The notes under the pieces were generated by a model, which did no database searches, was not told the origin of the DNA, and was given only the letters and a program-made list of their open reading frames with translations. From Branchiostoma floridae (taxonomy: Eukaryota > Chordata > Leptocardii > Amphioxiformes > Branchiostomatidae): a stretch of DNA of 64,000 bases. Below, in pieces: positions 23,061 through 64,000 of the stretch. The position numbers and the translations under genes are program-made. The stretch is taken from assembly GCF_000003815.2 (NCBI RefSeq), contig NC_049991.1:15936971-16000970 (forward strand), written 5' to 3'. Every line of letters begins with the position of its first letter. Within the stretch, counting starts at the first letter, position 1.

Positions 23061-25565
23061 GGTGTGCGGGTCCAGGCTCCACACGTCCGTCAGCGCGCCG
23101 TTCCGACGGTTCTTCCCGCCAACCAGCCAGATCCTGTCCTGCAGGACCGTGCAGCCCGCTAGGTGGCGCGGAAACCTGGCGGACAGAGTACACCGGGAGT
23201 GATTGGGCATGATGTCCATGGATTGACTGGGAATAATACAAAATTGATCGACCAGTGCGGTTGTGCTTAACGATCAAGCGTTACACGTAATCAAAGTGCA
23301 TCAATATAGAAAATCATCGTTAATAAACAATCCAAGTTCCAACGTTGCTTGGCCTCTATCAGCAATATCAGGAGACAGCAAAAGGGAATGTAGTTAAGTA
23401 TTTCTAGATCCTTGATATTCTTTGCTACCTCATCCAGGCTACAGCAGACCACTGGTCGGTGGCCGGCGTGTAGCACTCCGACGACAGTAGCTCCCGGGCT
23501 CCGTTGCACCCTCCGACTGAGTACAGCTTCCCACAGCACGCCACGGACGAGTGTCCCCAGCGCTTCTTGCGCATGCTCTGTACGTCCTGCCAGTAGTCTC
23601 CCTCGGGGGAGTACTTCAGCACGTCCTTCCTGGTCTGGTCGCGATGCGTTCCCGCCATGCCTCCCGTGAAGTAGATATGTCCGTTCAGGACGGCTCCTCC
23701 CGCGGCTTGGACTTGCGCGCCTACGCTAGCCTTCAGTTCCCACTTGTCCTTGTGTGGAGTGTATCTTTCTATGGGAAACATGCGGCCGCGCATCTCATAA
23801 CCCGAGCCGATGGCCCAGATGCATCCGTCCAGGGCTAGAAGAACGAAGCCCGTGCGACCCTGTTTCATGGAGGGAAGTCTTGTCCAGCGGTTGAATCTGG
23901 GGTCGTAGCGGTGAAAGTCGGCGCTCGGCGGGCCGCCGTCGAAACAGCCGCCGGCCACGTAAAAAAAGTTGTCGAGGACCGCGGCAGCGTGGCCGGTGAC
24001 GTTCCCGGACATGTCCGCCAGCAGGCCGGGGGAGTCCTGGCCGGGATGAAGGTACAGTAGGTTGTCGCTGTACTGAGCGTGATCGGGAACGTCGTAGTCG
24101 CCGCCCGCCACCACCACCACCTCGGCACCGCCGCGCACCTGCGTCCGCTCGTTCTCGTAGTCGTGCACGCGGTGGTGGTCGATGCCGGCCCGGTAGTCCA
24201 TGGCGTGGAGGAGTATGGCTTCACAGTCGCGGTCTTTCTTCATGAAGTCCACGTTGGAGACCTCGTGTTTCAGGCGGTACCGCCCCATCAGTGGAAAGCG
24301 CACGTTGCGCATTACCTTCCCCACGTGCTTCAAGCGCGAGCCTCGATCGGCCTCCACCCAGCGCTTGGCGGATCGGAAAATTTCAATTTCTGAGTCAGTA
24401 TCCAGATTATCACTCCCCAGAACAGCACACATCTGTCTGAGGTCAAGCTTCAAAAATCCTTCAGTACTTGACACGTCTTTGAAGTTCTCAATGACATAAT
24501 TTCTGGCCGTCTCTTCCAGACACGCCAGCTTGTACTCGAAGGCAATGTTCAACACTTCCACGCATCTTTCCGCATCAATGTGTTGTCGCAGGAACCGAAT
24601 ACAGAGGTATTCCATCCCGGTTACCCCTAGTTTCCGGCTGGCGTGCAGCAGTTCCCGGATGTTGTCCATGCCGACGCTCAGCTGCCCCGTGTAGGAGAAG
24701 TGAACCATCGCGCTCACTGCAGCCGCCGTGACGTCATCCAGACGTAAGCAGGGCTTGAAACTGGAGTCGCCGCTGGCCATGGTGCTGAACTGGTGATCCC
24801 GGAAGTACTCACTGGAAAAATCAGTGGATACGGCATTGTACATGAAGTGTAGAGGGAAAAGTACTACAGAATTTTCACATAGTGCTTACTATATCTGTCA
24901 GCAGCGCAACACGACTTTAGGGAAACTGTCACTATTTAGATGTAATCTATTCTCGTGATCTATAGGGTTGTTTAGCCAAAGCCGACACTGTAGGGCTGAT
25001 ATCAATTAGGATTTTACCGTGGTCAATATTGACCGACGGAGGCCATATATGATTCTGGAGGTAGTAAAGGAGATTTCTCCACAAAGACGATTCGCCGTCA
25101 CAGTCAGGATGATTCTCAATCGCCTGTACAAGACCAGTCTATGATCCTTACAAATTAATGTTTTTTTTTGGCTAAACTTCCATTTTTAGGCCATGGTTAT
25201 ACTAGTAGTTGCGTCAGGGGGGGGGTCCTCTTGACGGCGAAACGTCTAGAAACTTTTTGGAGGCTGGCATATACACACCAGCGTAACCTTACAAACGTTG
25301 CATCTTGTCACGGTTACAGTTTTCTTAGCATGCTGATCGTATCAACTAATATAAATGTTACGCACCTGCACTGTCCGAGAGAAAACCTGCTGGCCGGCAA
25401 ACTCTCCTTTTCGGCCAGCAACACCACGTCACCCGGTAACGGCGAGGACAGACTGGCCTCCCGGGGTTGGTGCCGCTCGAAGTCGGTATAAGTCAACACC
25501 TGTCGCTCGGGCAGGGGAGTCCTCCGGTCCAACAGAGCAACTGCGCTGTCGCCGTCGATCACCAT
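22953..25565 (-). CDS. BTB-BACK-Kelch (KLHL-type) protein, probable Cullin-3 adaptor
   Basis: Proteins of this architecture bring substrates to CUL3 ubiquitin ligases. Three exons on the minus strand: 25565-25366, 24811-23429, 23175-22953, giving 601 residues. The BTB domain (about residues 45-150) is split by intron 1: GDVVLLAEKE is in exon 1 and SEYFRDHQF in exon 2. The BACK domain follows at about 155-260. Six Kelch blades cover about 280-590, with double-Gly motifs such as FYVAGGCFDGG, IYFTGGMAG, LYSVGGCNG and IWLVGG; the last blade is the third exon. The start is the first ATG of the first exon with coding character (MVIDGDSAV). I cannot assign a particular KLHL number. The last exon is partly duplicated downstream. 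Confidence 0.9.
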
Positions 25566-40900: not shown

Positions 40901-43900
40901 CAAATAACCTTCTATATGTGTTGTCGACGATTTGGAATTCAGTAATTACATGTACTTTCAAGTTACAATTCAACAATCGTTTGACGTTTGAAGTGGAGAT
41001 GTTATTCAGTATAAATGCTTGGTATATTCATGTACTTTACCTATCATTACCTGCTGTACGTGGCAGACTGTAATTAAACTACTTGTTGCAGACATGCTTA
41101 AATTATGCATATTGTCAGACATATGGCGCCTTCATGAAACGGTTCATGTGATACATGAGGTGTTCCAATGGGCCTTTACATTTAATAGTGTTTTTTTCCT
41201 TCAAGATGTTACACAAAGGATATTTTTCCTGAAAAAAGAACTACATGTACAAGGGATAGCCTACTTCATTTGACTTGTGCAACAGATTTTACCTTACTAT
41301 AATTCACAGGTAATATATGATCCAGCTTCGTAGCCTGAAACCACTACAGATATATTACTGTCAGTAACTATCTACTAATAAAGCTGTCCAGTATTTGCTG
41401 GTTGACTTACAATGTAGGCTACACCTTTCAGCAAACCTAATGAAGCATGGAATGACTTGTTTACTTAGAGGGGTTAGACTGCCTTGTCTATCACCAGACT
41501 GATACATCCCCTGGGAGTTGTTGTCTCAAACAAGCCATCCTCACAGAAAACAAGCAAATTTTAGGCCCAATCTATACACAGTTTTTGCCGGATATCTGTG
41601 GAGATGTCGGGAGGGATCTGGAACGTTGGCCGCGGGACACCCGTGGCGCTTGCAGTCATTAACAGCTATATAGCCTAATGAGCCCGCGTTATATGCTTAT
41701 GAGCCACTCCATGATCAGTTGGTTTGGAACACATAAAACAGTAGATTCTTCATGTTGTGAACAGTTTAATGCTCTTCATTTGGTGTACTTCATTGTAACA
41801 GTAACACAAAATGTTTGGAGCCAGTTAATGTGCAGAAATGTCAGAGAAAGAAGTGTGCATGTATGTCTTAATAATATACATAATATATGTTCATAAATGC
41901 ACATCCTCTTCTTTCATACTGCCAAGCCTCTAATACTTAAGACTAACGGCAGATATCTGTATCTCTATTTGTATCTATAAAGCCAGTATAACCGCCCTGC
42001 GGTGTAACAAACCAGCACATACATGTGTGAATCTTCAGTTGAATGCAAAAGTTATACAAATACACATTGAACTTAGTGCCCTGTTTTCCATGGATCCCCC
42101 ACCTGAAATTTAGCAGAATATGATGTATACAAAAACCATTCTCGACTTTCACCCCATGTTTAAAAATAAAGCTGACGCTATGACCTCATTTCTGTTTACA
42201 GCACACTCTAGATTCAAACAAGCAACCTATCACAGACCCGACTTGACTGAGTCATCTAATGATTGGATCAGGGGTGGAACAGGACACAATAGGCAATACA
42301 AACAAACCCTGCCAGGCTATAAATTATTGATGTCTGTAATCAATATGGTACTGTAACTGTAACTGTACTAAACATGATGATTCATGATGAGATCTTATCT
42401 TAAAAGGGAAAGAGATCAAAACAGGTAGACTGGGTTTCTTACTGCATGTGATGACTGTGGTCTTTAACCCTGATATAGAACAATGCTTAATTACTGTAAA
42501 GAGGGTACATTAGGAAAGAACAAGACCCTAAAACACAAAGTACTTGCTAGATCTCTGGCCACTTCAACATAGATAAAAAGGGCAGAGAAAATGGACAAAG
42601 ATGTATCAAGCAAGTCAGGTGAATATACAACAGCGCCCCATTGAAAATGTATTTATGTCACTTCTAAAAACAGAGATGTTATTCAGACGTAACGTTGTAA
42701 CAATGTCTAGATTTGAACTAGAAATAGGCAAATATACCTGGACACCATTTCACACTTAGATTCAACCACTAAATCTATATAAAGCTGAGCATAACCTCGA
42801 CGTTATCCCCTTATCATTGACCTCACCAGAGTTGCCATGCCTCCTGGGGCCGTTGCTAAGTGACAATGACGAGATAGACATAAATATCATAGAAAGTTCA
42901 AGTTTAATGTCTCAGGGGCCGTGTAGCTGGCAGGCTTTCCAAATCTTACAACAAATCAATACAGCCATCTGGGCCCTTAAGTGACATCAATGGAAAGAGG
43001 ACTGGTCGTTAAATCTCCATACACACTCTTGGAGACCGATTCATGCTAAGTGAATCATGGGTTTGGGTCATTGGTAGCTACACTGAGCGTAAGGGAGAAA
43101 CTGCATAGATGGAACTCAAGCAGGGCATTGGCAGAGTAACGTGTAAACTGTGCAAGTGTTTGCCATTGGCTGTTTGATATTGACATACAGCAAACTGGAC
43201 AGCAGACCTTCTCTCTCTCTCTCTCTTTCTCTCAGATGCTTAGATTAGTGTTAGTGTTAAGTAGGAGACATCTTATACCATGTGCATGAAACACATGAAA
43301 GGACGCACAAGATGAAAAGCGCAGGATTTGGTGTGCGTAGTTTAAGATCAAACTAACATCACCTCCGATGCCACATGTTTGTGAAGTACGCAGACAGAAG
43401 CTAAAACCACATGTTTCACTTTGAACAGCATTGACCTGAAATTCATCTGGCAACCTCAAACATTCTACAGATGGAAACAACATGTCTCAAGCCTTCCCAG
43501 CAACAGAAGGTCAACCTTGGTGTTTGACATTTCACTCTGGAATGCAACCCAAAAATTCCATAAAGTAAACAATGACTCATCTGTGGTGACAACTGAAATT
43601 AAGGAAGTAGTGAACAGAATGTTTCAATCAAAATATAAAACGTTAATTTCTTGTTGTGTATTCCAAAAAGACATATTATGTGAAATGTTGTTAAAGCTCT
43701 GTCATTTTGTTGACAATTTCCATGCCTTAAGAGTGACCCACATCTACGTCACATTGGTATCAACTATCAAGTTGAACAACAACCTTTCTTGCAAAATAAA
43801 ACTACTGCACAAAGCCAAAGGGAAATGAATCCACTATATGTAGAAATATGAATAGGAAAAAACGACAAGAGATGATTCCCGACCTTAGCTTTCTTGTACC

Positions 43901-44714
43901 CTCTCTTCGATGCACAGTTCAGGTCCTCATGAACTTTGTCCAACAGCCAAAGTAGAAACTCAAAGGCGTCGTGCTGGTTGTAGCCACTGTATTGGGAGGC
44001 GTACTTGGACACGGTGTTTTTGAAGTCACTGGTGAGCTTTGGGGTGTATTGACAGGACCACAGTGCCTTAAGAATCTTGGCAAAGTCTTCTGTGACCTCC
44101 CCACGGGTTACAGGTTTCAACCTGGTACTGTCCCGCCACCGACGGATCCTGCTCAAGTCCGACTTGTACTGGTTCAAGACGAAATATTCGGCTAGCATGT
44201 CGGTGTTACTGAGACACTGCAAGACGGCGTTCATAAAACACGTGTTGCCGTGGTTTCTCAGCCCAGACAGGCCGGGCACGGGCAGTTTACCTCCCGAGAA
44301 AATCAAAGAGTTCCTCTGGGTCCCGGAATCCTCCGTGGACACCACAGATTCCCGCGGACTTGAGCTGCCCACCGTGGAAGTCTCCTTGCTTTGTAGTTGT
44401 GAGAACAGCGACATATGTCGAACCATCTTCTGTACAAGCTTACCGACGGACCTAAACGACGGCCGAGAGCGCTTCAACATTCGCTTCTTCGCACGCAGCA
44501 ACACTGTAGGGGAAGGTGCAGAGCTCTCTGTGCCCGACACTGTTTCACTGAAGGTCGGGGTTCGTGAGAGAGCGGTTGGTTTTCTCGGCGACTCCGTGAA
44601 CCCACCTTCGGAGTCACTCGCGCCTTCCTCCGCCGATCTGGGCGGCGAACTCTGGTCTTCATTTTCCGCTGCGTCCTTCCCATCCTCAGAAGTCTCTTGT
44701 GTCTCGGCACTCAT
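28960..44714 (-). CDS. USP31/USP43-like ubiquitin-specific protease, complete 14-exon gene
   Basis: Cysteine deubiquitinase of the USP31/USP43 group. Exons on the minus strand: 44714-43884, 40762-40510, 39331-39252, 35600-35462, 34995-34887, 34558-34447, 34161-34061, 33552-33475, 33123-32994, 32352-32230, 32070-31833, 31177-31051, 30687-30560, 29141-28960. Phases join to 876 residues. The Cys box GLRNHGNTCFMN puts the catalytic Cys near residue 159. The His box NHHGNMTGGHYT puts His near 729, followed by WYKFDDTKV and AYILFYQSR. Zinc-type CxxC pairs are in LTCPTCHRQSNTFDP and WHCPFCKK. The Ser-rich tail keeps DHWVNRIP and the GGFSSDSRPFVRSV motif that I recall from vertebrate USP31. It is shorter than the vertebrate proteins because their long C-terminal tail is missing. 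The start is the first in-frame ATG, MSAETQE. Introns 11-13 contain partial exon duplications. Confidence 0.93.
29085..30060 (-). repeat. Nine-copy tandem array of terminal-exon 5' part plus splice acceptor
   Basis: The word 'cggctgt' recurs at 29111, 29224, 29326, 29439, 29541, 29654, 29767, 29880 and 29995, giving spacings of 113, 102, 113, 102, 113, 113, 113 and 115. Copies 2-3 and 4-5 form a 215-bp higher-order pair. On the minus strand every copy keeps a pyrimidine tract, an AG acceptor, and the exon start encoding GGFSSDSRPFVRS or a variant. The functional terminal exon is copy 1; the other eight lie in intron 13 of the USP31/43-like gene. Confidence 0.9.
30446..30503 (-). repeat. Partial duplicate of USP31/43-like exon 13 with donor site
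   Basis: About 58 bp repeats the 3' end of exon 13 and its donor (original 30549-30606, period about 103 bp). The reading LPRSDVSSHDDTSDT is kept with only synonymous or mild changes. A nearby CAG could act as acceptor, but the resulting 38-nt exon would shift the frame, so it is probably not used. Confidence 0.7.
30779..30986. mobile_element. MITE with CTGTAAATGCA termini, copy 1
   Basis: It begins CTGTAAATGCAGAAATGTTT and ends AAATGCATTTACAG. The interior contains 'ttttcccgctaccgcaaaagtaaatcccc', shared almost exactly with the copy at 34212-34356. It lies in intron 12 of the USP31/43-like gene. Confidence 0.8.
31227..31437 (-). repeat. Two decayed duplicates of the USP31/43-like exon 12 acceptor region
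   Basis: Exon 12 starts with AFSKNPVDGRWYKF (31177 downward). Similar stretches at 31288-31227 (SKNQVDGR) and 31437-31379 keep the acceptor side but carry stops or changes directly after DGR. A block with 'tgatgaggcaaatag' follows each, so the two extra copies are themselves a tandem pair of about 150 bp. They lie in intron 11. Confidence 0.75.
34212..34356. mobile_element. MITE with CTGTAAATGCA termini, copy 2
   Basis: It begins ACTGTAAATGCAGAAATGTT and ends ATGCATTTACAGT. It has the same interior words as the 30779 copy, but is about 60 bp shorter. It lies in intron 6 of the USP31/43-like gene. Confidence 0.8.
36203..37730. mobile_element. 1.5-kb non-autonomous DNA transposon with perfect 24-bp inverted repeats, TA-flanked
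   Basis: AACGCTAGTTAACCTTTATT (plus CGTT) at 36204-36227 is matched exactly in reverse complement at 37706-37729, and TA lies at each outer edge. No transposase frame is seen inside, so this looks like a Tc1/mariner-type deletion derivative. It is located in intron 3 of the USP31/43-like gene. Confidence 0.75.
38872..38990 (+). repeat. Copy of dispersed repeat (with 19438 and 40322 copies)
   Basis: The stretch 'agcagaagttaggctcaagctgtttttttgacg…' aligns by eye with 'agcagaggttaggctccggctgttttttagcg…' at 40330. No coding sequence. Confidence 0.55.
40322..40506 (+). repeat. Foldback copy of the same dispersed repeat, abutting a USP31/43-like donor site
   Basis: The left arm (ctgttttttagcg…cggcctttctatttt) and right arm (aatagaaagcccaataaaaacgac…gaaacag) are loosely inverted. 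The right end lies within a few bases of the exon 2 donor (GT at 40509-40508 on the minus strand), so the donor context derives partly from the repeat. Confidence 0.6.
41951..42016 (-). mobile_element. Second copy of LINE 3' tail
   Basis: 'atctgtatctctatttgtat…agccagtataaccgccctgcggtgtaac' matches the 5215-5290 tail ('tatctgtatctatatagccggtataaccgccattcggcgtaac'). Only the 3' extremity is present, as expected of a severely 5'-truncated LINE insertion. It lies in intron 1 of the USP31/43-like gene. Confidence 0.7.
43209..43233. repeat. (CT)n microsatellite
   Basis: About 25 bp of CT dinucleotides with one TTT interruption. Confidence 0.8.
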
Positions 44715-45995
44715 TTCTCCCGGTACATTATGTGCCTTGCTTTCTCCGATAACGTCATTGTGGGTCACTTGAACAAAATATCATTAGAAACAGAGTAAAA
44801 GAACTGCAACTTTTTAAAATCGTAGAAATCCGCCATTTCCTTGCAGGTGGACTCCTGCAGCGCCTAGGTCAAAGGTTACCAGGTCTCGCGAGATCTCCCC
44901 AGCCCGTTTTGGCGGGAAAAGTTGGACACCTGTTGGAGTGTAAACGTCATGGGGACAAGTGAGGACACATAACACAGACCCCACATGAACTTGACCTTCA
45001 TTCATCTATAACACGAGCAATATTTACAGTCTAGACCGATCTAATGATACGTACACTACAAAGTGGCAGACGGCCAAAGAGTCCGACTAAACTAGTATTG
45101 CGGACTTGGTGTAACGTTAACGTTAACGGGGGGGATCCAATGTCCGGTAACTGTTCTAAGTGAATGCGCATGGCTTTTGTCATCGTACGTTTTACTGAGA
45201 ACCCATCAAAAACAATTTAAGATCTTGTTAACAACCATATAACTGTGATTTAAGCTGTGCAGACATATGTTTCCTTTAACGGCAGCATTCCGAACTTTAC
45301 TTTGACAGCGCGCGAAAGTTTTGGCAGGTTTGGACTTGCGTTTCAGTGGAACGTTCTAACACAAAAAAGGGGGTCCAAACTCCGATAAGTTAACAACCAA
45401 TCCATCTCTGCATATTTTTAAGCATCCTATGCATGCAAAATAACACTAAGCTCCTGCAATACTATTTTTTGTCACAAATATATGCAATATTTTGAATTAC
45501 GATGCATATTTAAATACGTTTACTTACAAGGATTACCTCTCACGGTGAAACCAACCTGTCGCCAAAAAGAAAAATGGCGGCACATTTGTTTACATCTGCC
45601 TGTGATTACACTTTTTCACTTTCGGCTTCTGTATTTCCTGCTTCAACCTTGTTTTTAACAGCAAAAACGACCACAGGATTTCTTTAGTCGGTAGGGATCG
45701 ATTTTCTTGAATGATTGGTACTCTACTGACAGGTTGACTAACTCCATCATGTTGAGCATCGCTCGGCTTCCTTCAAAGGTGATTGGCAAAGATGGCGGGG
45801 GTGACAGGGCCGTGAACATGCGGCATAATTCAGCTCCGATTATCCAACTATAAAAGCAAAGACACGGCATAGCTGTGCTTATTTAGGAAGTTTTATAGAT
45901 AGCCTTCTCATCTGTGGTGGTATCTTTTCACATTTCGTATTTGACGATGAATTATTTAATAGTTTCCCGGGCCATGTTCTCGATATGTATGCACC
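44715..45995. other. 5' flank of the USP31/43-like gene and start of the LINE-bearing block
   Basis: No supported gene. The promoter and 5'UTR of the USP31/43-like gene must lie here. The left inverted repeat of the 45113-50668 block starts at 45113. Short frames starting ATGGCGGCACAT (45575) and ATGGCGGGGG (near 45792) end within 40 codons and are not supported as genes. Confidence 0.4.
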
Positions 45996-46381: not shown

Positions 46382-49300
46382 ATGTATGAAAATCACTCTG
46401 CTGACAATGTAGCCAAGCTCGCCCTTTGTAACACTAGTATGACAATTCAGAAGGTTGCTTTGAAATTCGGTTCTTGGAATATCCAAGGCGGCCTTAGGCG
46501 AAAATGCCAAGACGAAGATTTTGTTTCCCACTTAGCTGATTTTGATTTTATTTGCTTGCAAGAAACCTGGCTTAAGCCAGGGGAAAACTTTAGAATAGAT
46601 TCATTTAGTTTTTATAGAAGTGATAGAAGTGCTAAGAAATCATCCAGAAGGAATTCTGGCGGCGTAGTTATTATGTTTAGAAACAAGTTCTCAAAAGGCG
46701 TGACAAAACTTTCAATAGGGCACCCAGATATTCTTTGGTGCAAGTTAGATAGAAATTTCTTTGGTCTGGAGCGAGATTTGTATGTCGGATGTGCCTATTT
46801 CTCCCCTGAAAATTCTTCATCTATCAAAATGGAAAACAACCTAGTCTTTGAAACTTTACAAGAAGATATATCAAAATTTTCAAATCAAGGAGACGTATTA
46901 CTCTTAGGTGATCTAAATGCCAGGACAGCATCCCTTCAGGAATCCTTTATCCACGACGATTGTTTGAGCCATGAATTTTTAGATGTAAGAGAAGATATAC
47001 AGGCTAGGTCCAGCTGTGACAAAGGAGTAAACAGATATGGCAACCAACTCCTAGACCTTTGCTCTGCAGCCAACCTCGTGATTTTAAATGGACGGGTACC
47101 GGGTGATCTATCGGGAAAACTTACATGTCACAAATACAATGGCTCAAGCCTGGTAGACTATTATATCGTAAATTCAGAATTCCTCTCCAAAATTCAATAT
47201 TTAAAAGTAAATGACCTTTCCGTGTTTTCTGACCATTGTTCATTGTCATGTTCCATATCCACAAACTACTCTCCTTATGTGAAACAAGAAAATACCCCGG
47301 CGAACCCATTACCAACAAAATACATATGGGACGAGGATTCTCATGCAAAATTCACTGAAGCACTACTAGCGCCCTCGACATTATCAAACTTACAAAAATT
47401 TATGAATAACCCTTTCCCAAATGTGGACAATGCTGTAAAAGAAATTACAAATATTATTACTGATGTGGCCGATAAATCTCTCCGGAAGATTGTTTACAGG
47501 AAAAATAAGAAAAAGAAAAAGAAAAGCAAACCATGGTTCACATCATCTTGTTTTTCCCTCAAACGTAAAGTAAACCAACTGGCTGCTCAGTTCTCTAGAT
47601 GTCCATGGAGACTCGACATCCGCCATGCATATTTCTGTAACCTTAAATTATATAAGAAAAAACTAAAAACAGAAAAAAGACTATTTAAAGAGAGGCAATG
47701 GACAAATCTTAGCAAACTTAGCAAAGTAAACCCACAACAATTTTGGAGAGAAATGAAACAGCAACAACTAAATGACAATGATAAACAACAGGAAGATGAC
47801 AGCATAACTCACGAAGCCTGGAGAACTCACTTTAAAAATCTAAACAATTTAGCGGAAAACGACACATCTGACAAAGACTTTCATCAACATGTAATACAAG
47901 AAAGGCCTCAACTTCTCAATAGAATGAACAATAGGACCACAATAGACCGAAACAATAAGAAACAAACAGACAACATCATCAATAATCTTGAAAACCAAAC
48001 GGGAAACCCCTTAGATTTCGAAATCACCGAAGAGGAAGTAAAGAATGGCTTACGAAATCTGAAAAACAACAAAGCATGTGGTATTGATTCGATTCTCAAT
48101 GAGATGCTGAAATATGGAGACACAAAACTTATCCCACCACTAAAAAAACTATTCAATGTCATCCTTCAGTCCGGCAATTTCCCACAAGTATGGAGTAAAA
48201 GCATTTTAGTCCCAATATTTAAAAGCGGCGTCACTTCAAACCCATCAAATTACAGAGGGATAGCTATTTCCAGCTGCGTTGGAAAACTATTCACATTTAT
48301 ACTAAACAGACGATTGCAGCACTTTCTTGAAAACGAAAACATATTATCTCCTTTTCAGTCCGGCTTCCGAAAAGACTTCAGGACAAGTGATAACATATTT
48401 GTTCTAAAAACTTTAATAGATCAACAGATATCTGTACCTGGAGGAAAATTATATGCCTGTTTTGTGGATTTCAGGAAGGCTTTTGATTCAGTCTGGAGAA
48501 ATGGGTTATTTTACAAACTTTTATCTTCTGGCATTGGTGGAAAGTTCTTTAGTATGATAAAATCCATGTATTCCAATGTAGAATTCTGTGTTAAAACATC
48601 AAAAGGTTTGTCAAATTACTTTAAATCAGCACGTGGAGTACGCCAAGGTTGTAACCTAAGTCCGCTTCTTTTTAATCTTTTTGTAAATGATCTCCCAACT
48701 TTATTAACATCACCATCATCCGATCCCGTTTTTCTAAAAGATGCCCCCATAAGCAGCCTGCTCTGGGCAGACGATCTTGTGCTCCTGTCCAGATCAGAAG
48801 CAGGACTAAAGGAGTGTCTCAAAGGACTAGATAAGTACTGCTCCCTGTGGAAACTATCCATCAACAGGGATAAAACCAAAGTCATGGTTTTCTCTAAAAA
48901 TGGACGAGCATACAAAAATCAGCGCTCCCCTTTCCAAATACAGGGACAGACCATAAACATCACAGACTCTTATACATATCTTGGAATAGACATAACCCCA
49001 TCGGGATCTTTCAATCGTGCTACGAAACAAATCAGATTAAAAGCCCTTCGCGCATCGTTTAAACTTAAATCTCTATTGGCATCTAACTACAATCCGTCTA
49101 TCTCCCTCTCCCTAGATTTGTTTAACAGCCTAGTCAAGCCTATTTTACTTTATTGTAGTGAGGTAATAGGGACCAATATTCGATGCAGAGACTTTATTCT
49201 AAATGGTATAGTAGAGTTACCAAATGAAAATATTAGGGAGAAAGTCTGCAACATGTTGTCTCCGATTTTGGGATCTAATGTACATGATCTAGTTCTTAAG

Positions 49301-50233
49301 GTTGCCCGTACTGGGAAGAAATCTGATACAGTAGCATGTCGCCCTGTTCTAGTGCGTTTTAAGAAGTACAAAGATAAGTTGAATGTCTTATATAATTCAA
49401 AAACCCTAGCTAATCAAAATGTTTTATTAGAACAGCCTACAACGTCCTATGAGATACCTGACTTGGAATATGTTCTTCTTAACTATTGCAAAATGCTTCT
49501 CTGTGTCCCAAGAGGCTCTGTAAACGCTGCCATCAGAGGCGAATTAGGAATGTTTCCATTATACGTTGACATGCAAACACAACTTATTAAATACTGGCTT
49601 AGATTACGTACCCTTCCCAATGATAGAATTGTAAAGAAGGCATATGACACAGCAGTTGAACATGAACTAGAATGGACTGTCCATGTTCAAGATATTTTGT
49701 GCAGGCATGGTTTCCAAAGTGTTTGGCTAAGCCCTGCGGTTGATGCCAAACACTTTGGTAACATATTCAAAGAACGTTTAAAAGACACATTTCTCTCTGG
49801 CTGGCGACGAGAAATAAACAGTTGCAACAAACTAAAAACCTATTCCCAAATCAAAAGTCACTTTATACTTGAAAATTACCTCTCGTCAGTTCGTAATAAA
49901 GCCTTTGCTGTCAACATAACCAAATTAAGAATCAGTTCACACTGCTTGGAAATAGAAAAAGGTCGGTACCGTAATATACCAGCCAACCAGAGGCAATGTC
50001 CTTCATGTAAAGATGGTATTGAAGATGAGTACCATTTCCTAATGACATGCCCCACATATAGCGTAGATAGACAAAAATTAATGGATACAATCACATGTAA
50101 ATCTAGCACACCTTTACCAAAGACAAACAAATGTACTTTCAATCTACTTATGTCATGTCCAGACAACATATCTTCGTATTTAGGCCAATACATATGTAAT
50201 GCTCTAAAAAAGAGAGAATCTATTGTACAGTAA
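46382..50233 (+). CDS. Non-LTR retrotransposon ORF2: AP-type endonuclease and reverse transcriptase, intact
   Basis: 1283 residues without a break. The N-terminal APE-like endonuclease (about 25-300) shows WNIQGG, LQETWL, GGVVIMF, LLGDLNART and, at its end, SDHCSLS. The reverse transcriptase (about 540-860) shows NYRGIAI, FQSGFRKDF, CFVDFRKAFDSV, GVRQGCNLSPLLF and the catalytic WADDLVLL. The C-terminal part ends with a zinc-knuckle-like CPSCKDG then HFLMTC (about 1205-1230). There is no RNase H motif. Behind the stop are an AATAAA (50397-50402) and a short (TTCA)n tail ending near 50428, typical of LINE 3' ends. Such enzymes nick the target DNA and copy the element RNA in place. I do not assign the clade. 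The open frame suggests a recent, perhaps competent, copy. Confidence 0.9.
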   Translation: MYENHSADNVAKLALCNTSMTIQKVALKFGSWNIQGGLRRKCQDEDFVSHLADFDFICLQETWLKPGENFRIDSFSFYRSDRSAKKSSRRNSGGVVIMFRNKFSKGVTKLSIGHPDILWCKLDRNFFGLERDLYVGCAYFSPENSSSIKMENNLVFETLQEDISKFSNQGDVLLLGDLNARTASLQESFIHDDCLSHEFLDVREDIQARSSCDKGVNRYGNQLLDLCSAANLVILNGRVPGDLSGKLTCHKYNGSSLVDYYIVNSEFLSKIQYLKVNDLSVFSDHCSLSCSISTNYSPYVKQENTPANPLPTKYIWDEDSHAKFTEALLAPSTLSNLQKFMNNPFPNVDNAVKEITNIITDVADKSLRKIVYRKNKKKKKKSKPWFTSSCFSLKRKVNQLAAQFSRCPWRLDIRHAYFCNLKLYKKKLKTEKRLFKERQWTNLSKLSKVNPQQFWREMKQQQLNDNDKQQEDDSITHEAWRTHFKNLNNLAENDTSDKDFHQHVIQERPQLLNRMNNRTTIDRNNKKQTDNIINNLENQTGNPLDFEITEEEVKNGLRNLKNNKACGIDSILNEMLKYGDTKLIPPLKKLFNVILQSGNFPQVWSKSILVPIFKSGVTSNPSNYRGIAISSCVGKLFTFILNRRLQHFLENENILSPFQSGFRKDFRTSDNIFVLKTLIDQQISVPGGKLYACFVDFRKAFDSVWRNGLFYKLLSSGIGGKFFSMIKSMYSNVEFCVKTSKGLSNYFKSARGVRQGCNLSPLLFNLFVNDLPTLLTSPSSDPVFLKDAPISSLLWADDLVLLSRSEAGLKECLKGLDKYCSLWKLSINRDKTKVMVFSKNGRAYKNQRSPFQIQGQTINITDSYTYLGIDITPSGSFNRATKQIRLKALRASFKLKSLLASNYNPSISLSLDLFNSLVKPILLYCSEVIGTNIRCRDFILNGIVELPNENIREKVCNMLSPILGSNVHDLVLKVARTGKKSDTVACRPVLVRFKKYKDKLNVLYNSKTLANQNVLLEQPTTSYEIPDLEYVLLNYCKMLLCVPRGSVNAAIRGELGMFPLYVDMQTQLIKYWLRLRTLPNDRIVKKAYDTAVEHELEWTVHVQDILCRHGFQSVWLSPAVDAKHFGNIFKERLKDTFLSGWRREINSCNKLKTYSQIKSHFILENYLSSVRNKAFAVNITKLRISSHCLEIEKGRYRNIPANQRQCPSCKDGIEDEYHFLMTCPTYSVDRQKLMDTITCKSSTPLPKTNKCTFNLLMSCPDNISSYLGQYICNALKKRESIVQ

Positions 50234-53141: not shown

Positions 53142-56100
53142 ATGAAGTCTCTCTCCATCTGCCACGCCAACGTGAGAAGTCTACCTGCTAATGATTTTGT
53201 TAAACTCCATGAACTCGAGTCTGTTGCCCTAGATGTGGGATTTGATGTGATAGCATTAACAGAAACTTGGTGTGACGAAACTATTTCCGATTCAGATATT
53301 AGCCTATCGTCATATCAATCCCCGTTACGACGGGACCGCAACAGACATGGGGGTGGAGTTGCGCTTTACGCATCCAATAATCTACCGTGTGAAAGAAGGT
53401 CTGACCTTGAAACAGATGGTTGTGAAACAATCTGGTGCGAGGTGAAGCTAAAGAATTGGACTGTTTACATTTGTACCTGTTATAGACCACCTGGCCAGAA
53501 TGTGGATGAGTGTATGGCATTCATAGACCACCTGCAGCGGGCGGTAGATACCATTGTGGACAATGGACCTTCTCAGCAAAATGCAATAGTCTTACTTGGT
53601 GATTTCAATGGTAACTCAGATAATGCAGCTGGTATGATAAACAGATTTGTGTCTGACAACAATTTTTCTCAGTTAATAACGGAACCTACTCGTAGTACCG
53701 ACACCTCAGCATCTGTGCTTGATCTGATTATTACTGATTCACCAGGTATGTTTGTGAACCATGGTATTCTTCCTCCCCTTGCTAATTGTGACCATGCTGT
53801 TATTTATGGAACAATGTCTGTTAAGGTCCCTAAAGTCAACGCTTATAAACGAACAATGTATGACTTTACGAACGTCGATTATGAAGAACTTAATTCTAAG
53901 ATTCTTGAAGTAGACTGGAATTCCGTGATATCGGATCACATTCCAGACGTGAATGCCTCAGCTGAGGCTTTTATGTCAACTCTCACAGATGTCATAAAGA
54001 TGGTTATTCCAAGTAAAGTAGTCACTATCCGCCCTAGAGATAAGCCCTGGATGACATGTGAGATCAGGCGCTTACTCAGGAGAAAGAGGCGGCTCTACAA
54101 AAGGTACAAAAAAACGAATAACCCTAGTTTATTTTGTGCATTTAAACGAGTTCGAAATAATTGTATAGATTTAATTAGAAAAGCGAAGAGAAACCATCGG
54201 CATAGCCTCTGTCTTGACCTTGCCAATCCAACTTCTAACCCCAAAAAATGGTGGTCTGTTTCCAAGGACATCTTTCTTGGCAAGGCGGACCGGGTTCTGC
54301 CCTCTTTACTTGAGAATGGAAATGTTATGACAGACGACAAGGCCAAGGCCGATATTCTTAACAACTACTTTGCATCTCAAACGTACCTGAATACCGATGG
54401 CGCCTCTTTCCCAAACTTTGTACCCAGAACAGAACTAGCTCTCAATTCAATTATTTGTTGCCCCGCAAATGTCTACAGTGTACTGTCAAACCTCAATATA
54501 AACAAGGCCACAGGGCCTGATGGACTAAGTAATAGGTTTCTGAAGTGTATAGCACCTTCAATAGCACAACCACTGTCGCATTTGTTTAATGTTTCATTAG
54601 AATACGGCTGTTTTCCGTCAATTTGGAAATTTTCAAATGTTGTTCCAGTGTATAAGAAAGGTGATAAGCAGTCCAAAGAAAACTATAGGCCTATTTCACT
54701 CTTGTGCTGTGTGTCCAAAGTGTTTGAACGGATAGTTTATGCCCCATTATCTGCTTACTTACATGGCAACAACCTGCTAACCGATCGAAATTCTGGATTT
54801 CTCCCGGAGACTCACAGTCATTCACTGACACACCTTGTTCACAAGCTGCACAAAGCAGTAGACCAAGGTTTTGAAGTACGCACCGTTTTCCTGGACATAT
54901 CAAAAGCTTTTGATAAAGTTTGGCACGATGGTCTCCTTTTCAATAGCCTGGAATCCAGCCGTGTTGTGCTTTGGTCGCTCTGCTTCCTGTGTATTGGCAG
55001 GAAGCGTACCTCAGGGGAGCGACCAAAGCACAATACGGCTGGATTCCAGGCTACCTTTTCAAACTAAGCCAACTAGGAATATCTGGTTCACTTCTTCAAT
55101 GGATACAATCTTATCTCACAAATCGGAAGCAGAGAGTTGTCATTAATGGGGCATGTTCCGACTGGCTACCGATTGACGCAGGTGTCCCACAGGGGTCGCT
55201 TTTGGGCCCACTCCTTTTCCTAGTTTTTATTAATGATCTAGTGGACAACTTACAAACTGATGCCAATCTTTTTGCTGATGACACGTCTCTTGTGGAAGTA
55301 GTTTTGGATCCGCTTGTCTCAGCAAATAGATTGAACCATGATCTTAGAATGGTAGGTGAATGGTCGGACCAGTGGCTAGTAACTTTTAATCCTCTTAAAA
55401 CTGAACTGATGACATTCTCCATGAAAAGGGTCAAAGTCAATCACCCACCATTATTGTTTAAAGGAGTTGTGCTTAAAGAAGTTGACTCTCACAAGCATTT
55501 GGGCTTAAACTTGAAACGTGACTTGTCCTGGTCATATCACATGTCTACATTGATTACCAAGGCAATGAAGCGAATCAATCTTCTGAAGAGGATATCATAT
55601 TTTGTCCCTCGGGGAACATTAGAAACTCTGTATGTCACTATGATTCGTCCATTACTTGAATATGCTGACATTGTTTGGTGTGGCCTTCTCGGCAAAGATT
55701 GTGATCTTCTTGAGTCTGTGCAGATGGCCGCGGCACGAGTTTGTACCGGAGCCATGAGAGGCACTAAACATGAGAGCTTGTTAGCCGAGGTTGCATGGGA
55801 CACACTAGCGGACAGAAGGAAAAAGCACCAGTTGATTCAGTTTTGGAAAATTATGAATGGTCTCGCACCACTGTACTTACATAACATTATCCCGCCACGT
55901 ATCTGTGATACGGTCCCTTACAACCTTCGCGCAAACCAAAACCTTACTTCCATTTCCTGTAAAACTGAAAAGTATAAAAGATCCTTCCTACCTTCAATTG
56001 TTCACTTGTGGAATGAACTGCCTACGAATGCTAAAGCCGTCCTCTCGATCTACACTTTCAAAAAAGAGCTGGACTCACTATTTAACAAGCCGACAAAATA

Positions 56101-56458
56101 CTCCCATTTCTCTTACGGCCAAGGTCGTTCCGTAGTTCAACTTACAAGGCTCCGTCTAAATTTCAGTCAGTTAAACTACCATCTATTTCAACACCATTGT
56201 ATTGATTATCCTACATGTAAATGCGGCTATCATTGTGAAACAACTGAACATTATCTACTACACTGCACACTCTATACCAGCCAAAGAAGTTCTTTGTTAT
56301 CGGCTGTCTCCAATATTATAGTAGACCTAAAGCACCTCAACGACACCTCTTTATGCACTTTACTGTTATCAGGATCAACATCTCTCTCACATCAACAGAA
56401 CTGTAACATCTTTGATCTTGTCATTACTTATATCCACTGTACAGGCAGGTTCTCCTAA
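53142..56458 (+). pseudogene. CR1/L2-like LINE ORF2 interrupted by a MITE
   Basis: The first open frame (53142-55067) has the APE-type endonuclease beginning SICHANVRSLPAND, with ALTETWCDE, GGGVALYAS and LLGDFNGNSD. It continues into reverse transcriptase motifs NYRPISLLCCVSKVFERIVY and FLDISKAFDKVWHDGLLF. The second frame resumes after the insertion with GVPQGSLLGPLLF and the catalytic FADDTSL. It runs to 56458 with CKCGYHC and HYLLHCTLY Cys/His motifs near its end. The break is caused solely by the 109-bp MITE at 54945-55053 plus its 9-bp duplication; no other stop or frameshift is seen. A short A-rich tail follows near 56630. The endonuclease start and YRPISLL wording fit the CR1/L2 group, though the clade call is by eye. 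Confidence 0.88.
54945..55053. mobile_element. 109-bp MITE with 37-bp inverted repeats, inserted in LINE coding sequence
   Basis: It begins TAGCCTGGAATCCAGCCGTG and ends ACGGCTGGATTCCAGGCTA. The arms match for about 37 bp with one mismatch. The 9-mer CCTTTTCAA flanks it at 54936-54944 and 55054-55062. The reverse-transcriptase frame continues across the site if element and one duplication are disregarded, which fixes the boundaries exactly. Confidence 0.95.
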
Positions 56459-58402: not shown

Positions 58403-61400
58403 ATGATCAAGTCGACAACATTACGTAAGTGACAATCAATATTTCTTTCTCTGTAACTTTGTTGGCCGCATGGTAAAACTGTGACAATGTGTCTTGACAC
58501 TAGTGTGAAACATGTATGCTGTGATTTGAACTGATCAAACAAGGGTGAACCAGAGTTCAGTTCAGTTCAGTTCAGATCGGCTAATTAGAGTTAAACGACC
58601 CCATACCTTTGCCAAATAATTTAACCTTTACAACTCGTGCATTGTGAGTGTTTGTCATTACGTATGGAAGTAAAGTCCTTATTTTTACATTAATTATTTT
58701 AGCTGATCATCTCCTTAGTCCCAAAACAGGCCTACATAATCTATCTAGGCTATAAAAGCGTCTCTGCTAATCTATGCAAATGAGGTACTCATTTGCATAA
58801 TTAGATGTCCAATAATGTTCAGCCCTACATAACTTCCAAACTGTACCAGAAGTAAGAAATTCCCGCAATTTACCACAATGGGATTATCGCATTAACACCT
58901 GAAATATGCGGGGCCTAAACTTAGCATATGCATATCACTATTGTTTTCAGCCGCGCTTGTCCATAACTTCATTCCGAAAATTATGTTAGATACTACCATA
59001 ATCCCAGTTGTTAAAAACAAATCTGGTAATATTTCTATTAGTGATAATTATAGACCAATTGCCCTTGCATCAACATTATCCAAAGTTCTGGAGGCCGTTT
59101 TATTTGGTTTTAAACGTGGACATGGACTTGACATGTGTGTATTTACTTTAAAACAGACAATTGAGTACTACCGGGGTCTCGGTTCGCCGTTCGCCAGTTT
59201 TTGCTTGTTTCTTGGACGCCTCCAAGGCTTTCGATAGGGTAAACCATTGGACTCTATTTAAAAAAAAACTCCTTGACAGAAAGGTCCCGGTGTATTTGGT
59301 GAGGTTTCTGGTTTACTGGTACCAGAACCAAACAATGTGTATCAGATGGAGCAATGTTTTGTCTCCCTGCTTTTATGTATCAAATGGTGTAAGGCAAGGA
59401 AGTCTGCTATCCCCACTATTATTCAATGTATATGTTGATGACTTAAGTTCGAGACTCAGCAGTACTAAAGTAGGTTGCTATATAGGAGGTTTTCTTGTGA
59501 ACCATCTTTTTTACGCTGACGACATGTGTTTGTTATGTCCTAGCCTTAAGTCTCTGCAAAAACTTGTAAGTACTTGTGAGGACTTTGGTTTAGAAAATGA
59601 TTTGTTATTCAATGTAAACAAGACATGAAGCTGCATGTGCTTCCCGAGTGCTAGTTTGCCACTTTTACATCCGCTCCCGTGCGTCGATCAATCTGTATGG
59701 AGAGTGTTTTGAGAGATTTGTGACATCATTTGTATATCTTGGAATTGCTATTAATGACAGACTGAGTGATGATGACTGCATTCTTGCCCAGCTAAGGGGT
59801 CTGTATTGTCGTGCAAATACTATAATTCGAAAATTTTGTCTTTGTTCACCTACTATTAAGAAAACACTGTTCACATCTCAATGCTCCCAACTCTTTGGTG
59901 CGCAGTTATGGAATTCTTTTCGTTCGAGTGTTCTGTCGAAATGTCGCATGGCTTACAACAATTGTTTCCGTATAATAATGAGTTTACCGAGATCTTGCAA
60001 CGCTAGTGAAATGTTTGTGTTCAATCATACTGATACCTTCGACGCCAGATGGCGTAAACAGTGCCATTCCTTTGTACATAGGCTTTTCAATTCAACTAAT
60101 ACCATTATTCAGTCTGTACTTAGGTCCGACTCGTTTTACCAGGATTCATTTTTCACCAATCTTTGGCGCCGCCTCTTTACATAGCCATGGTAGTTGTACA
60201 TATTCTTTGTTTTTCATGTTTTGTCCCTGTGTCATATGGGCCAGTGAGAGCCTGAAATAAAGAAAATAATAAATTATCGTTTTCCAGCAGTGCCTCCCCG
60301 GAGGGTGATGAGATACATCCTCTACAGCGTCATAGGAATCGTCGTCGTCACCCTGGTCTACAGAAGCATCGGCGACAACCTGCCAGAGAAGATGCGCCAT
60401 GCTGTGCAGATCGCCTCGGAAAAGACATCCAGGGGATGCCGCCTGGACAGCGTCGTGTATCCCCCAGTCATCCCCATCCACGCGCCGCTTCCAGTCAAAG
60501 TAGAGGTCACCGGCATACATGGTCGTCACGCTCCTCGGGCGGAGGCAACGATTTTAGCCAAACTTAAGGGCGCTGAAGGCATCGGATCTGAATTCATCTT
60601 GTATTACGGCATCGGTTCTGTTGTCCTGGCCTTACCCAAGCCCGGAGTTTGGGTAGTGTCCGTAAAAGTGGACAAGTACATCGCACAGGACTCTGCCGAG
60701 GACGGCGAGGCGGAGATGTGCTCGCGCACTTTCTCAGTACAGGCAGTACACCTCCGTCAAACGAACATTCCAGTCAGAAAAGTTTCAGAAGCTTCTCTTC
60801 GCGTGGATAAAAATAAAAACGTTGTTTGGTCGAATGGCATCATGGTCATCGAAGGGAGCCCGAGGATCCCAGAAGACGTAACGTTGACCGTGAAACCAGG
60901 TGTGGTCATCCTCATGACCCCAGGGTCACGTCTTGACGTCATCGGTCGGGTGAATATGGGGAGAGAGGGGGGCGATCCGGTCCTCTTCACAGCAATGCCG
61001 GACGGAGAGGGAAAGGTAATGCCGTGGGACCAGGTCACATTTCATCGTGGTTCCAAGGGCGACCTTCACAACACCTGGCTAACACACGGCGGCAGCACGA
61101 AGAGCCCCAACTTTGGCAGTCTGGACACGACGCCGGTAGTTCATGTCCAGAAAGATGCCGCCGTAAGTTTTCACGGAGGGGGCCTGGTAGACAACGTTGG
61201 CGAGGCCATCAGAGGAGACGTTTGTCGCATTGCCATACAGGGGACGGTCATCGCAAGGTGTGCAGGGGGTGGTTCGGCAAGAGAGGCTGTGGTTACCATG
61301 GAGAATGTCCACGTCACTGAGATTAGTCTGGATCAGAGAATCATGGCAGATTTCACAAAAGACGCGTTCTCCTTCTTCTCTCCTCGAACAATCGCTAATC

Positions 61401-64000
61401 CGTCCGACGTTTCGGTGATTTCTAACAGCGTCTTCGCGGTTGGAGGCGGTCTGGGTATAACCATAAGGGCTCTAACTTCGTCGTGCAGTCAACAATCATC
61501 GAGAACTTTCACCGGGCTTGCGTTCTGACGTCAGGCGAGAAGAGCCAGGTCACTTTGAAGAATATGATCATTCGGAACTGCGCGATCGGACTGCGTGTTG
61601 GGTACGGTAAGATGAATGTAACACTGGACAACTCCGTGATAGTTAACAACAAAGTCGGCGTCTGGTACGGAGAAGACGGCGTAGATAACATGGGTACCTT
61701 AGACATCCACAATGTTCTAGCCATAGGAAACTCGGAGAAAAACCTCAAGGTTTACAGCGACGGGGTGGAGCGCACCAACACCGACCGGGGGTCTGACAAC
61801 GTGCGACTGCGGTGCTTTTTCGTGAACACCGAGTCGACGAAACGTACGCCGAAATCCAAGTTTTCCCTGCCCCAACGAATGCCAGAGAAGCCCTGCCGAC
61901 AACCCGACATCTATCTGGACCACACAGAATGTCAGATCAACGTGGAGGTGCCGCGAGCCGAATGTCTGTGGGCAGACTACAGCCCGGAACCGCTGGTGGA
62001 CGCTCGCCTGGAGAGGATAGACCTCTGTTCGAACTGCTGTGAGGAGACGACACAGGAACTGACGTTCGGGAGCTACGACCACTGGCGCCTGAAGGACATA
62101 AATGATCTGAAGGACGCGTCTATCAGCACGGAGGGTAGCGCGCCGGGGGCGGAGTGCGGACTTTCCTTCTCCGCAGACTTCTTCCAGTACACGGACAGCC
62201 AATGTTTGAAAAGTAAGATCCGTATCAAGTCGGTCTTCAGCAACATATCCCACAACCAGGCAGAAAGTCATTTGAGAGAGCTGAAAACCTACTACTTCGA
62301 CCGGGTCCTACAGTTTCATCTGACTCCGCCGTCTTTTGGACTCATGCTCGACTTTTCGCACATCCTAGATTCCAATGCCTCCGCCTTCATTGACAAAACC
62401 ATGAGTTGTGGCTTGAGCGACAATGACGGCAATCAGGTGTCCTCGTTCGTCACCGCATGGGTGCCTGATATCGGGATGTACATGAAGTTATCTGTGCAGT
62501 TAGCAGATTTAGTCCACCCGAAGAACTTCTACCCTTACGTGGTATTTCTGTACCTGTCCAACTGCATGAAATCCGGACACTCCCACTTTGCCAGTAAAGA
62601 GACTTTCGATTACCTTCTCATCGACAACGATCGGTGTTTCGTGCCGGAGAGAGTCACGGCCCTGAACTTTACTTTTCACTACCGGAAACGGCTACTCGTA
62701 CTGACGGACACGTTATTCTCTGGGACACACGTCTGCGACGTGCCAACAGATATAATCAATAAGTTCAAACATGCCAACGCCATATCATCAAAAGTGCCAA
62801 GTTTAGGAAGTCAGCTCAGAGAAGAAGTTGTGAAAGACGAGGAAATGGGGCCGCTGATATTGAAGGAAAACCCAGAGATATACGAAGAAATCGATGGTCG
62901 CGTGTCCACCCTGTTAGCTCACTACCACAGGACTTGTGACGAATACAACGCAGACAAATACAATCCTATCCTGACAAAGGTTTATAAGACAGGGACAATC
63001 CAGTACGCGTACATGGTCCAGGGAAGGGACTACATGATCGCCAAATTCGAGGATGACCACATCGGTTACCTGAAAGCCGTGGGAACGTCAGCGCGGCAGC
63101 ACATCGGAGGCGAAATCATGAACGGTGGCTTTGCCGAGCTCGTGGCATACCACATTGATCGCCTGATGGAGCTCGGCCGTACCCCGGTTGTCGCTTCCCG
63201 TCGCCTGTTTCTCGACAACTCTATCCTCCTCAAAGGTATAATCGAACCGGATGGCGACCTTCTACACGACTACACGTCAAATAAGTTCACGTTGGAGAAG
63301 TTCCTGTCGGAAGTTAAAAACGGGGACAAAGATGTGGATAAGACAATCCAGTGGGTCGCAAACCAGATGAAAACGGTGGACGGAGCTCCGTTCTTGGACA
63401 TTGTGGTTGTTGGGAGAGTCAAGTCCCTACGAGTTGATATAGACTTGAACCCTAAGATAAAGGACTTTCTAGCGCACCGCATCTCCTTCAATGACCTTGA
63501 AGACGCGGGCGTGACGCGTCAGATGACGTGGGATCTCACTAACACCATCGTGTTCGATTTCCTAACGCACAACCCGCAGCGCACCGCCCTGGCGACGTCG
63601 GAACTGCGTCACGTCATCTACGACAACAGACCCGCGTTCTCCCCGTCCATTCCGACCGCGGTTTGTGACTCTATCCTGCGCTGCCATCCGGCACTATACA
63701 ACAAGCCCCCCTCCCCCAACCCCCACGGTCCAATCGCCTGCCCTGCGGCATGTTGGCGAGAAGAAGACGACCTGGCTGGAAACTGTAAATTTAGGAAACA
63801 CGTCTTGGATCGCTTTTACAACTATGAGACAAACACGTCCAGAGTCGACGAATTTGTGAATTCTCTGAAGAAAGCCTTGGCTAAGGAAGCTTTGGACGTC
63901 CAGTCCATCGAAAACTATTTTGGACAGGTAGACTTGTACACCGGACTGCAGGAGAGGATATCGTACTTTCTAGGTCACGTGGAGAAATGTCACAAACAAT
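58403..64000 (+). CDS. Predicted type II membrane protein: beta-helix ectodomain plus four-jointed/GASK-like (pseudo)kinase; 3' end beyond window
   Basis: A 22-nt first exon (58403-58424, MIKSTTL) is proposed to join 60288 or 60291 at a tandem CAGCAG acceptor; both keep the frame of ATG 60308. A hydrophobic anchor, YILYSVIGIVVVTLVY, follows. After a Cys-containing domain, about residues 190-450 show right-handed beta-helix repeats (IPEDVTLTVKPGVVIL, then GSRLDVIGRVNM). The C-terminal region (about 62950-64000) resembles Golgi kinases of the four-jointed/GASK1 type: MIAKFE (candidate Lys, codon 63043), FAELVAYHIDRL (Glu, 63136), FDFLTHNPQR, VIYDN (Asp, 63622), and the tail block CKFRKHVLDRF. 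Where relatives have FDR with the catalytic Asp, this has PQR, suggesting a pseudokinase. The frame changes near 61453 by an apparent one-base loss in GGG. From 61399 to the window end the second frame is fully open. No stop is reached, though the family tail is almost complete. Confidence 0.7.
58941..60184 (+). pseudogene. 5'-truncated, frameshifted LINE reverse transcriptase in intron 1 of the beta-helix/kinase-like gene
   Basis: Reverse transcriptase motifs are spread over three frames: NYRPIALASTLSKVLEAVLF, then FLDASKAFDRVNHW, GVRQGSLLSPLLFNVYVDDL and FYADDMCLLCPS, then a C-terminal stretch (YLGIAINDRL, SEMFVFNH) ending at 60184. There is a deletion just after the first motif, a frameshift near 59180 and a stop near 59627. 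The endonuclease is missing. It ends about 100 bp before the acceptor at 60287. Confidence 0.85.

Follow-up and report, generated by a model that had tools for sequence, protein, structure and literature searches.

An amphioxus gene family that joins a beta-helix to proposed Fam20-like pseudokinase domains, probably in tandem

The window analysed here is a stretch of 64,000 nucleotides from the Branchiostoma floridae genome (C13:15936971-16000970; 513 Mb in 431 contigs were searched), and the gene in question lies on its forward strand, from an ATG at 60308 to a stop codon 24 bases beyond the window end. Together with five paralogues it forms a family of six copies, a count that is a lower bound. 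The paralogy, a right-handed beta-helix, the kinship of the last domain with Fam20 at profile level and the loss of the catalytic Asp are established from sequence. The best reading is that kinase-like domains in tandem behind a beta-helix constitute a new architecture in the Fam20 superfamily, with a function that we infer. It is reasonably probable that the six copies encode N-terminally anchored scaffolds, presumably of the secretory pathway, which consist of an anchor, a beta-rich stretch, a beta-helix (in three copies) and tandem, diverged kinase-like domains of the Fam20 superfamily with a proposed docking role.

The C-terminal kinase-like domain (62788-64000, forward strand, running 24 bases past the window) carries Lys at 63073, Glu at 63136, Gln within HNPQR at codon 63577-63579 in place of the catalytic Asp, and the D-N motif at 63622, just as a first-pass annotation of the stretch had described. 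A profile of the six copies, searched against 177,635 PDB sequences, placed Fam20 entries at all of ranks 1-6 (5xom, E 1.6e-4; 4kqa, 0.0023; 5yh3, 0.043; 5yh0, 0.064; 5wrr, 0.098; 5yh2, 0.11), followed at rank 7 by a ribosomal protein (E 0.34). Helix C, the catalytic loop and the Cys-Arg tail stand in the same order in the three displayed alignments; the family helix C, AELvAYHvDRL, is aligned with AEIAAFHLDRL, the catalytic-loop block reads LLDLADIFVLDFLIHNPeR, and the YLK lysine lies opposite FK in the 4kqa alignment. The family alignment of the six copies has seven rows, C14 being entered as two pieces; the Fam20C model matches three of them (best E 0.001), and the FAM198 model also three (best 0.046). 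Aligned by hhalign with three FAM198 genes from this genome, the C-terminal profile scored 43.8, against a maximum of 22.9 in 60 column shuffles.

Several observations weigh against this assignment. Searched alone, the window protein gives no significant match to Fam20, FAM198 or the PDB and none to the Pfam models of Fam20C (PF06702) and FAM198/GASK1 (PF15051), in single-sequence searches where the HMMER filters discard most weak matches. Moreover, the single blocks of the PDB alignment are weak (best independent E value, i-E, 0.45; tail about 1 bit or less), and the profile score leans on the helix-C motif. The Fam20/GASK assignment is thus owed to the family profiles and not to the window sequence alone. 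The kinship with Fam20, Four-jointed and GASK proteins that the first-pass annotation had proposed is supported by the family profile; the lack of a significant FJX1/GASK hit, which it would have counted as fatal, is what the single sequence gives and the family profile does not. In the genome, the FAM198 search gave above-cut-off matches at three other loci, with the window gene absent from the 13 matches, and the Fam20C search gave matches at two loci, with C14 as the sole member of the beta-helix/kinase-like family to appear, below the cut-off. As a separate observation, a weak sub-cut-off match to the Fam20C profile at C19:9362792-9363004 (L046) may, by eye, belong to the four-jointed gene of this genome.

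At the catalytic position the window copy has Gln, four paralogues have His, Ala, Thr and Thr, and C14 has Asp, so that the residue is replaced in five of the six copies; Lys, the helix-C Glu and D-N are likewise retained in five of six. In C14, as read with its splice sites unsettled, the helix-C Glu is replaced by Lys, the YLK lysine is missing and STGE occupies the D-N position. The catalytic Asp by which an active Fam20 kinase is recognised, described as the catalytic base of Hydra Fam20 (Asp299; PMC5865150), is absent from the window copy. Since Lys, Glu and the metal-binding Asp are retained alongside a variable catalytic position, binding of nucleotide or metal without phosphotransfer is the likeliest state. 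Unusual chemistry of a kinase fold has a precedent in SelO, which transfers nucleotide. An active enzyme of this kind would do without the usual catalytic Asp, and Lys, Glu and D-N, which presumably bind ATP and metal, are indeed kept in 5/6 C-terminal domains and in 6/6 copies of the middle domain described next. However, the substituted position is variable (Q, H, A, T), as expected if no catalysis takes place there, and we regard such an enzyme as quite improbable.

The first-pass annotation had left a Cys-containing region unnamed. It is indeed present (62143-62781, forward strand), and it is likely, judging from its motifs, to be a second, diverged Fam20-like domain without catalytic Asp, a fold assignment in tandem with the last domain that the annotation had missed. 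Its motifs follow the order of the C-terminal domain, namely the IKS lysine, RELKxxYxDRV, NCMKSGHSHF and LIDNDRC; in the window copy Lys stands at 62227, Glu at 62278, Met at 62566 at the presumed catalytic-Asp position and D-N at 62623, and Lys, Glu and D-N are invariant in all six rows. A regular expression for helix C, run over 356,992 six-frame codons, gave 17 matches at 14 distinct places, since certain loci overlap, and every one of them falls in the beta-helix/kinase-like family, FAM198 or Fam20; it was written after the middle-domain sequences had been seen, and most of the scanned loci had been fetched for such genes. A helix-C motif model whose training left the middle domain out scored 8.0 to 25.8 bits in 6/6 copies, against a background best of -2.5 bits, and none of 32,386 background windows reached the middle-domain scores. 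The motif rows of that test omit C4c, whose helix-C stretch is the same as that of C4b, and the D-N place of C14. With a model built from FAM198 and Fam20 rows only, the copies scored 4.8 to 25.4 bits and the background at best 4.0, a thin margin for the weakest copies. Additionally, the profile alignment of the middle with the C-terminal domain scored 26.4, a value equalled by one of 398 scored shuffles (400 run).

The rival reading holds that there is a single kinase-like domain and that the middle region is an unrelated lumenal domain, whose helix-C-like motif arose by chance or convergence. The following results speak for it or weigh against a second kinase fold. The middle-domain profile has no PDB match at E 10, no Fam20-type Pfam model matches the domain, and comparing the two domains with HMMER yields only noise. 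Once helix C is masked, the profile alignment matches best at D-N, with a score of only 17.4, within the shuffle range, and the comparison of the middle domain with FAM198 (18.9) lies inside its shuffles (maximum 20.7 of 60). The D-N motif itself is weak: of 54,659 background windows, 3 score as high as the window row and 14 to 123 as high as four other rows, and the best D-N match of C4c lies elsewhere. The single-sequence structure models are of low confidence (mean predicted local distance difference test score, pLDDT, 32.8 and 29.2), and the background itself was a six-frame, stop-free translation of the window outside the gene and not a set of real proteins. On the other side stand the held-out helix-C scores in every copy, the succession of the two motifs, which is as expected in most rows, and the invariant Lys, Glu and D-N. 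An unrelated middle region is hence in our judgement unlikely, and the assignment as a second Fam20-like domain is preferred.

In front of the two kinase-like domains, the beta-helix predicted by the first-pass annotation is borne out by PF13229, which matches 61468-61840 above its curated cut-off (27.4 vs 25.9 bits, E 3.1e-6) and matches 3/3 aligned rows at E 1 or better; in the longer piece 61483-63999 the match falls below the cut-off, at 21.2 bits. The C-terminal part of the helix is placed at 61468-61800 (forward strand), from the PF13229 match on residues 2-69 of 61468-61840 and, for the remainder, by continuity. Its probable N-terminal part (60815-61462, forward strand) was assigned by look and continuity, and 60815-61462 of the window row has no Pfam match. 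PF13229 proteins presumably share the pectin-lyase-like fold. Farther upstream, a Cys-bounded, beta-rich lumenal stretch (60434-60760, forward strand), perhaps Ig- or filamin-like by eye, is conserved in three aligned rows; its window row has no Pfam match and the stretch no PDB match. The in-frame ATG and the N-terminal hydrophobic anchor MRYILYSVIGIVVVTLVYR occupy 60308-60373 (forward strand); the anchor was placed from the open reading frames and a similar segment in the paralogues, and its type II orientation is assumed. A putative splice acceptor (ttttccag, 60280-60287, forward strand), seen by eye just 5' of the anchor, has acceptor-like counterparts at a similar position in all four paralogues that possess an anchor part, so that 5/5 copies show such a site.

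The five paralogous loci were found in a whole-genome search with the second of the two reading frames in which the gene is read, at C13:17.10 Mb, C4:8.75 Mb, C4:22.07 Mb, C4:22.08 Mb and C14:13.75 Mb; the first frame matches all of them except C14. C13b (L023) and C4a (L024) hold the anchor, the beta-rich stretch, beta-helix exons, and the middle and C-terminal domains. The neighbours C4b and C4c (L025 and L026, C4:22.07 and 22.08 Mb) have an anchor exon that continues straight into the Cys-containing region, with no beta-helix exons, and C14 yielded only the later Cys-containing region, the middle domain and the C-terminal domain. All five thus share the C-terminal half, beta-helix exons occur in two of them and in none of the other three within the stretches read, and the occurrence of the full architecture in only 3/6 copies tells against the proposed scaffold. 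The C14 splice sites are unsettled, with a stop in one join, and the middle-domain rows of C4c and C14 were assembled by hand from pieces. The first-pass annotation would have abandoned its fusion had the beta-helix and kinase-like parts proved to be separate genes; this is unlikely on genomic sequence, as the parts follow one another in C13b and C4a just as in the window copy, apart from the short piece A278-309, which was not found in C4a. No relative was found when viral contigs were searched by tblastn with the C-terminal half and with the middle domain, or prokaryote contigs with the middle domain only. Directly 5' of the C13b anchor exon lies a repeat of GGGCTA/GGGCTG type, which can be read in one frame as a Leu-Gly run.

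The window copy is read in two frames, the first from the ATG at 60308 to 61462 and the second from 61465 to the stop, with no internal intron from 60308 to the gene end. About 827 residues precede the C-terminal domain, where the first-pass annotation had counted some 900, and they are divided by a single reading-frame break (61463-61467, forward strand), located by comparison with the paralogue frame; near 61463 the window is one base short relative to C13b. A 34-base intron at this place was rejected, as it would give the wrong frame and delete conserved residues. The break, seen in one assembly, may be real or an assembly error, and it could mean that the window copy is nonfunctional. A decaying gene, namely a copy without internal introns that is losing its frame, would account for the break and for the absence of the four introns in the matched part of C13b. 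However, no further stop or break occurs in 1,237 codons, despite an identity to C13b in aligned codons of only 37% in the A part and 53% in the B part. In the B part, the window copy and C13b differ at 0.373, 0.224 and 0.600 of first, second and third codon positions and at 0.672 of four-fold sites, a bias that suggests long selection on the protein, and the acceptor-like site upstream of the anchor has been kept. Decay is therefore a possibility of some weight that we nevertheless rather doubt; the window copy would either still work, the break being an assembly error, or be a gene starting to decay. As for the introns, the join ISN/SVF at the second C13b intron is exact in the window copy. 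The acceptor-like site makes it the likelier and simplest history that the internal introns were lost by way of a partial complementary DNA and the upstream intron was kept, and a full retrocopy was rejected for the same site.

A first exon farther 5' than 58403 is possible. The first-pass annotation had the gene span from 58403, and this did not hold: no coding part of the gene was seen in 58403-60260, where its frame has many stops. Instead, 58941-60184 (forward strand) is a decayed fragment of a non-long-terminal-repeat (non-LTR) retrotransposon with broken frames, identified by an RVT_1 match (E 1.1e-21 on 59161-59625) and delimited by open reading frames; no family matched 58941-59234, and 59648-60181 gave nothing above the cut-off. 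The retrotransposon stretch was rejected as a coding part of the gene on account of these stops and the RVT_1 match. Two further non-LTR retrotransposons with endonuclease and reverse-transcriptase matches lie at 46382-50233, open across 1,283 codons, and at 53142-56458, split over two overlapping frames near 55000. Open frames on the reverse strand at 23425-24843, 43767-44768 and 17034-18506 match BTB-Kelch, ubiquitin carboxyl-terminal hydrolase and TPR, respectively.

The proposed mechanism begins with a protein that, from its N-terminal hydrophobic segment and the known families, would sit as a type II protein in the Golgi or at the cell surface. Its kinase-like domains may bind nucleotide or metal without the usual phosphate transfer and, by analogy with FAM20A, could act as docking or activating partners of active Fam20 or Four-jointed kinases. 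Being joined in one chain, the two domains could pair with each other, and the beta-helix might hold a glycan or another repetitive ligand. A more specific version is tentative at best: an undescribed Fam20 branch in which tandem Asp-less domains sit behind a beta-helix and may have nucleotide chemistry of their own or, as a covalent Fam20A-like pseudodimer, may dock the active kinases of the secretory pathway on glycan substrates. Fam20A is described as a pseudokinase seen in vertebrates alone (PMC7948968). If the proposal is true, the presence in an invertebrate chordate of several Fam20-like pseudokinases, probably tandem and joined to a beta-helix, would suggest repeated origins of secretory pseudokinase partners and would connect glycan recognition with secretory kinases in a testable way. 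The individual parts are known; among the titles and abstract openings listed in searches of open-licence literature, none describes their combination.

Among known systems, Fam20A, Fam20B and Fam20C (5xom, 4kqa, 5wrr, 5yh2, 5yh3) share with the window protein the helix-C Glu motif, the catalytic-loop block and the C-terminal Cys-Arg block in the same order, whereas the window protein has a replaced catalytic Asp, no Pfam Fam20C match and the long N-terminal extension with the beta-helix and the probable second domain. Fam20A, a secreted pseudokinase, resembles it as a kinase fold without the full catalytic set, and a partner role is suggested by analogy (PMC5413348, PMC5865150 and PMC7948968). 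Fam20A lost the Glu (Gln258), whereas the window family keeps the Glu and lost the H/YRD-type Asp, and Fam20A activates Fam20C by pairing (PMC7948968, PMC5413348). The likeness to FAM198/GASK1 and Four-jointed/FJX1 lies in the helix-C motif and, for FAM198, in profile similarity, whereas the FAM198 genes are separate, at three loci, and 3/3 keep LDR at the catalytic position. An N-terminal anchor is typical of both the FAM198/GASK1 and the Four-jointed/FJX1 families. Finally, the right-handed beta-helix proteins (PF13229) are linked to the window protein by the above-cut-off match, and the difference from them is the fusion of the helix to kinase-like domains.

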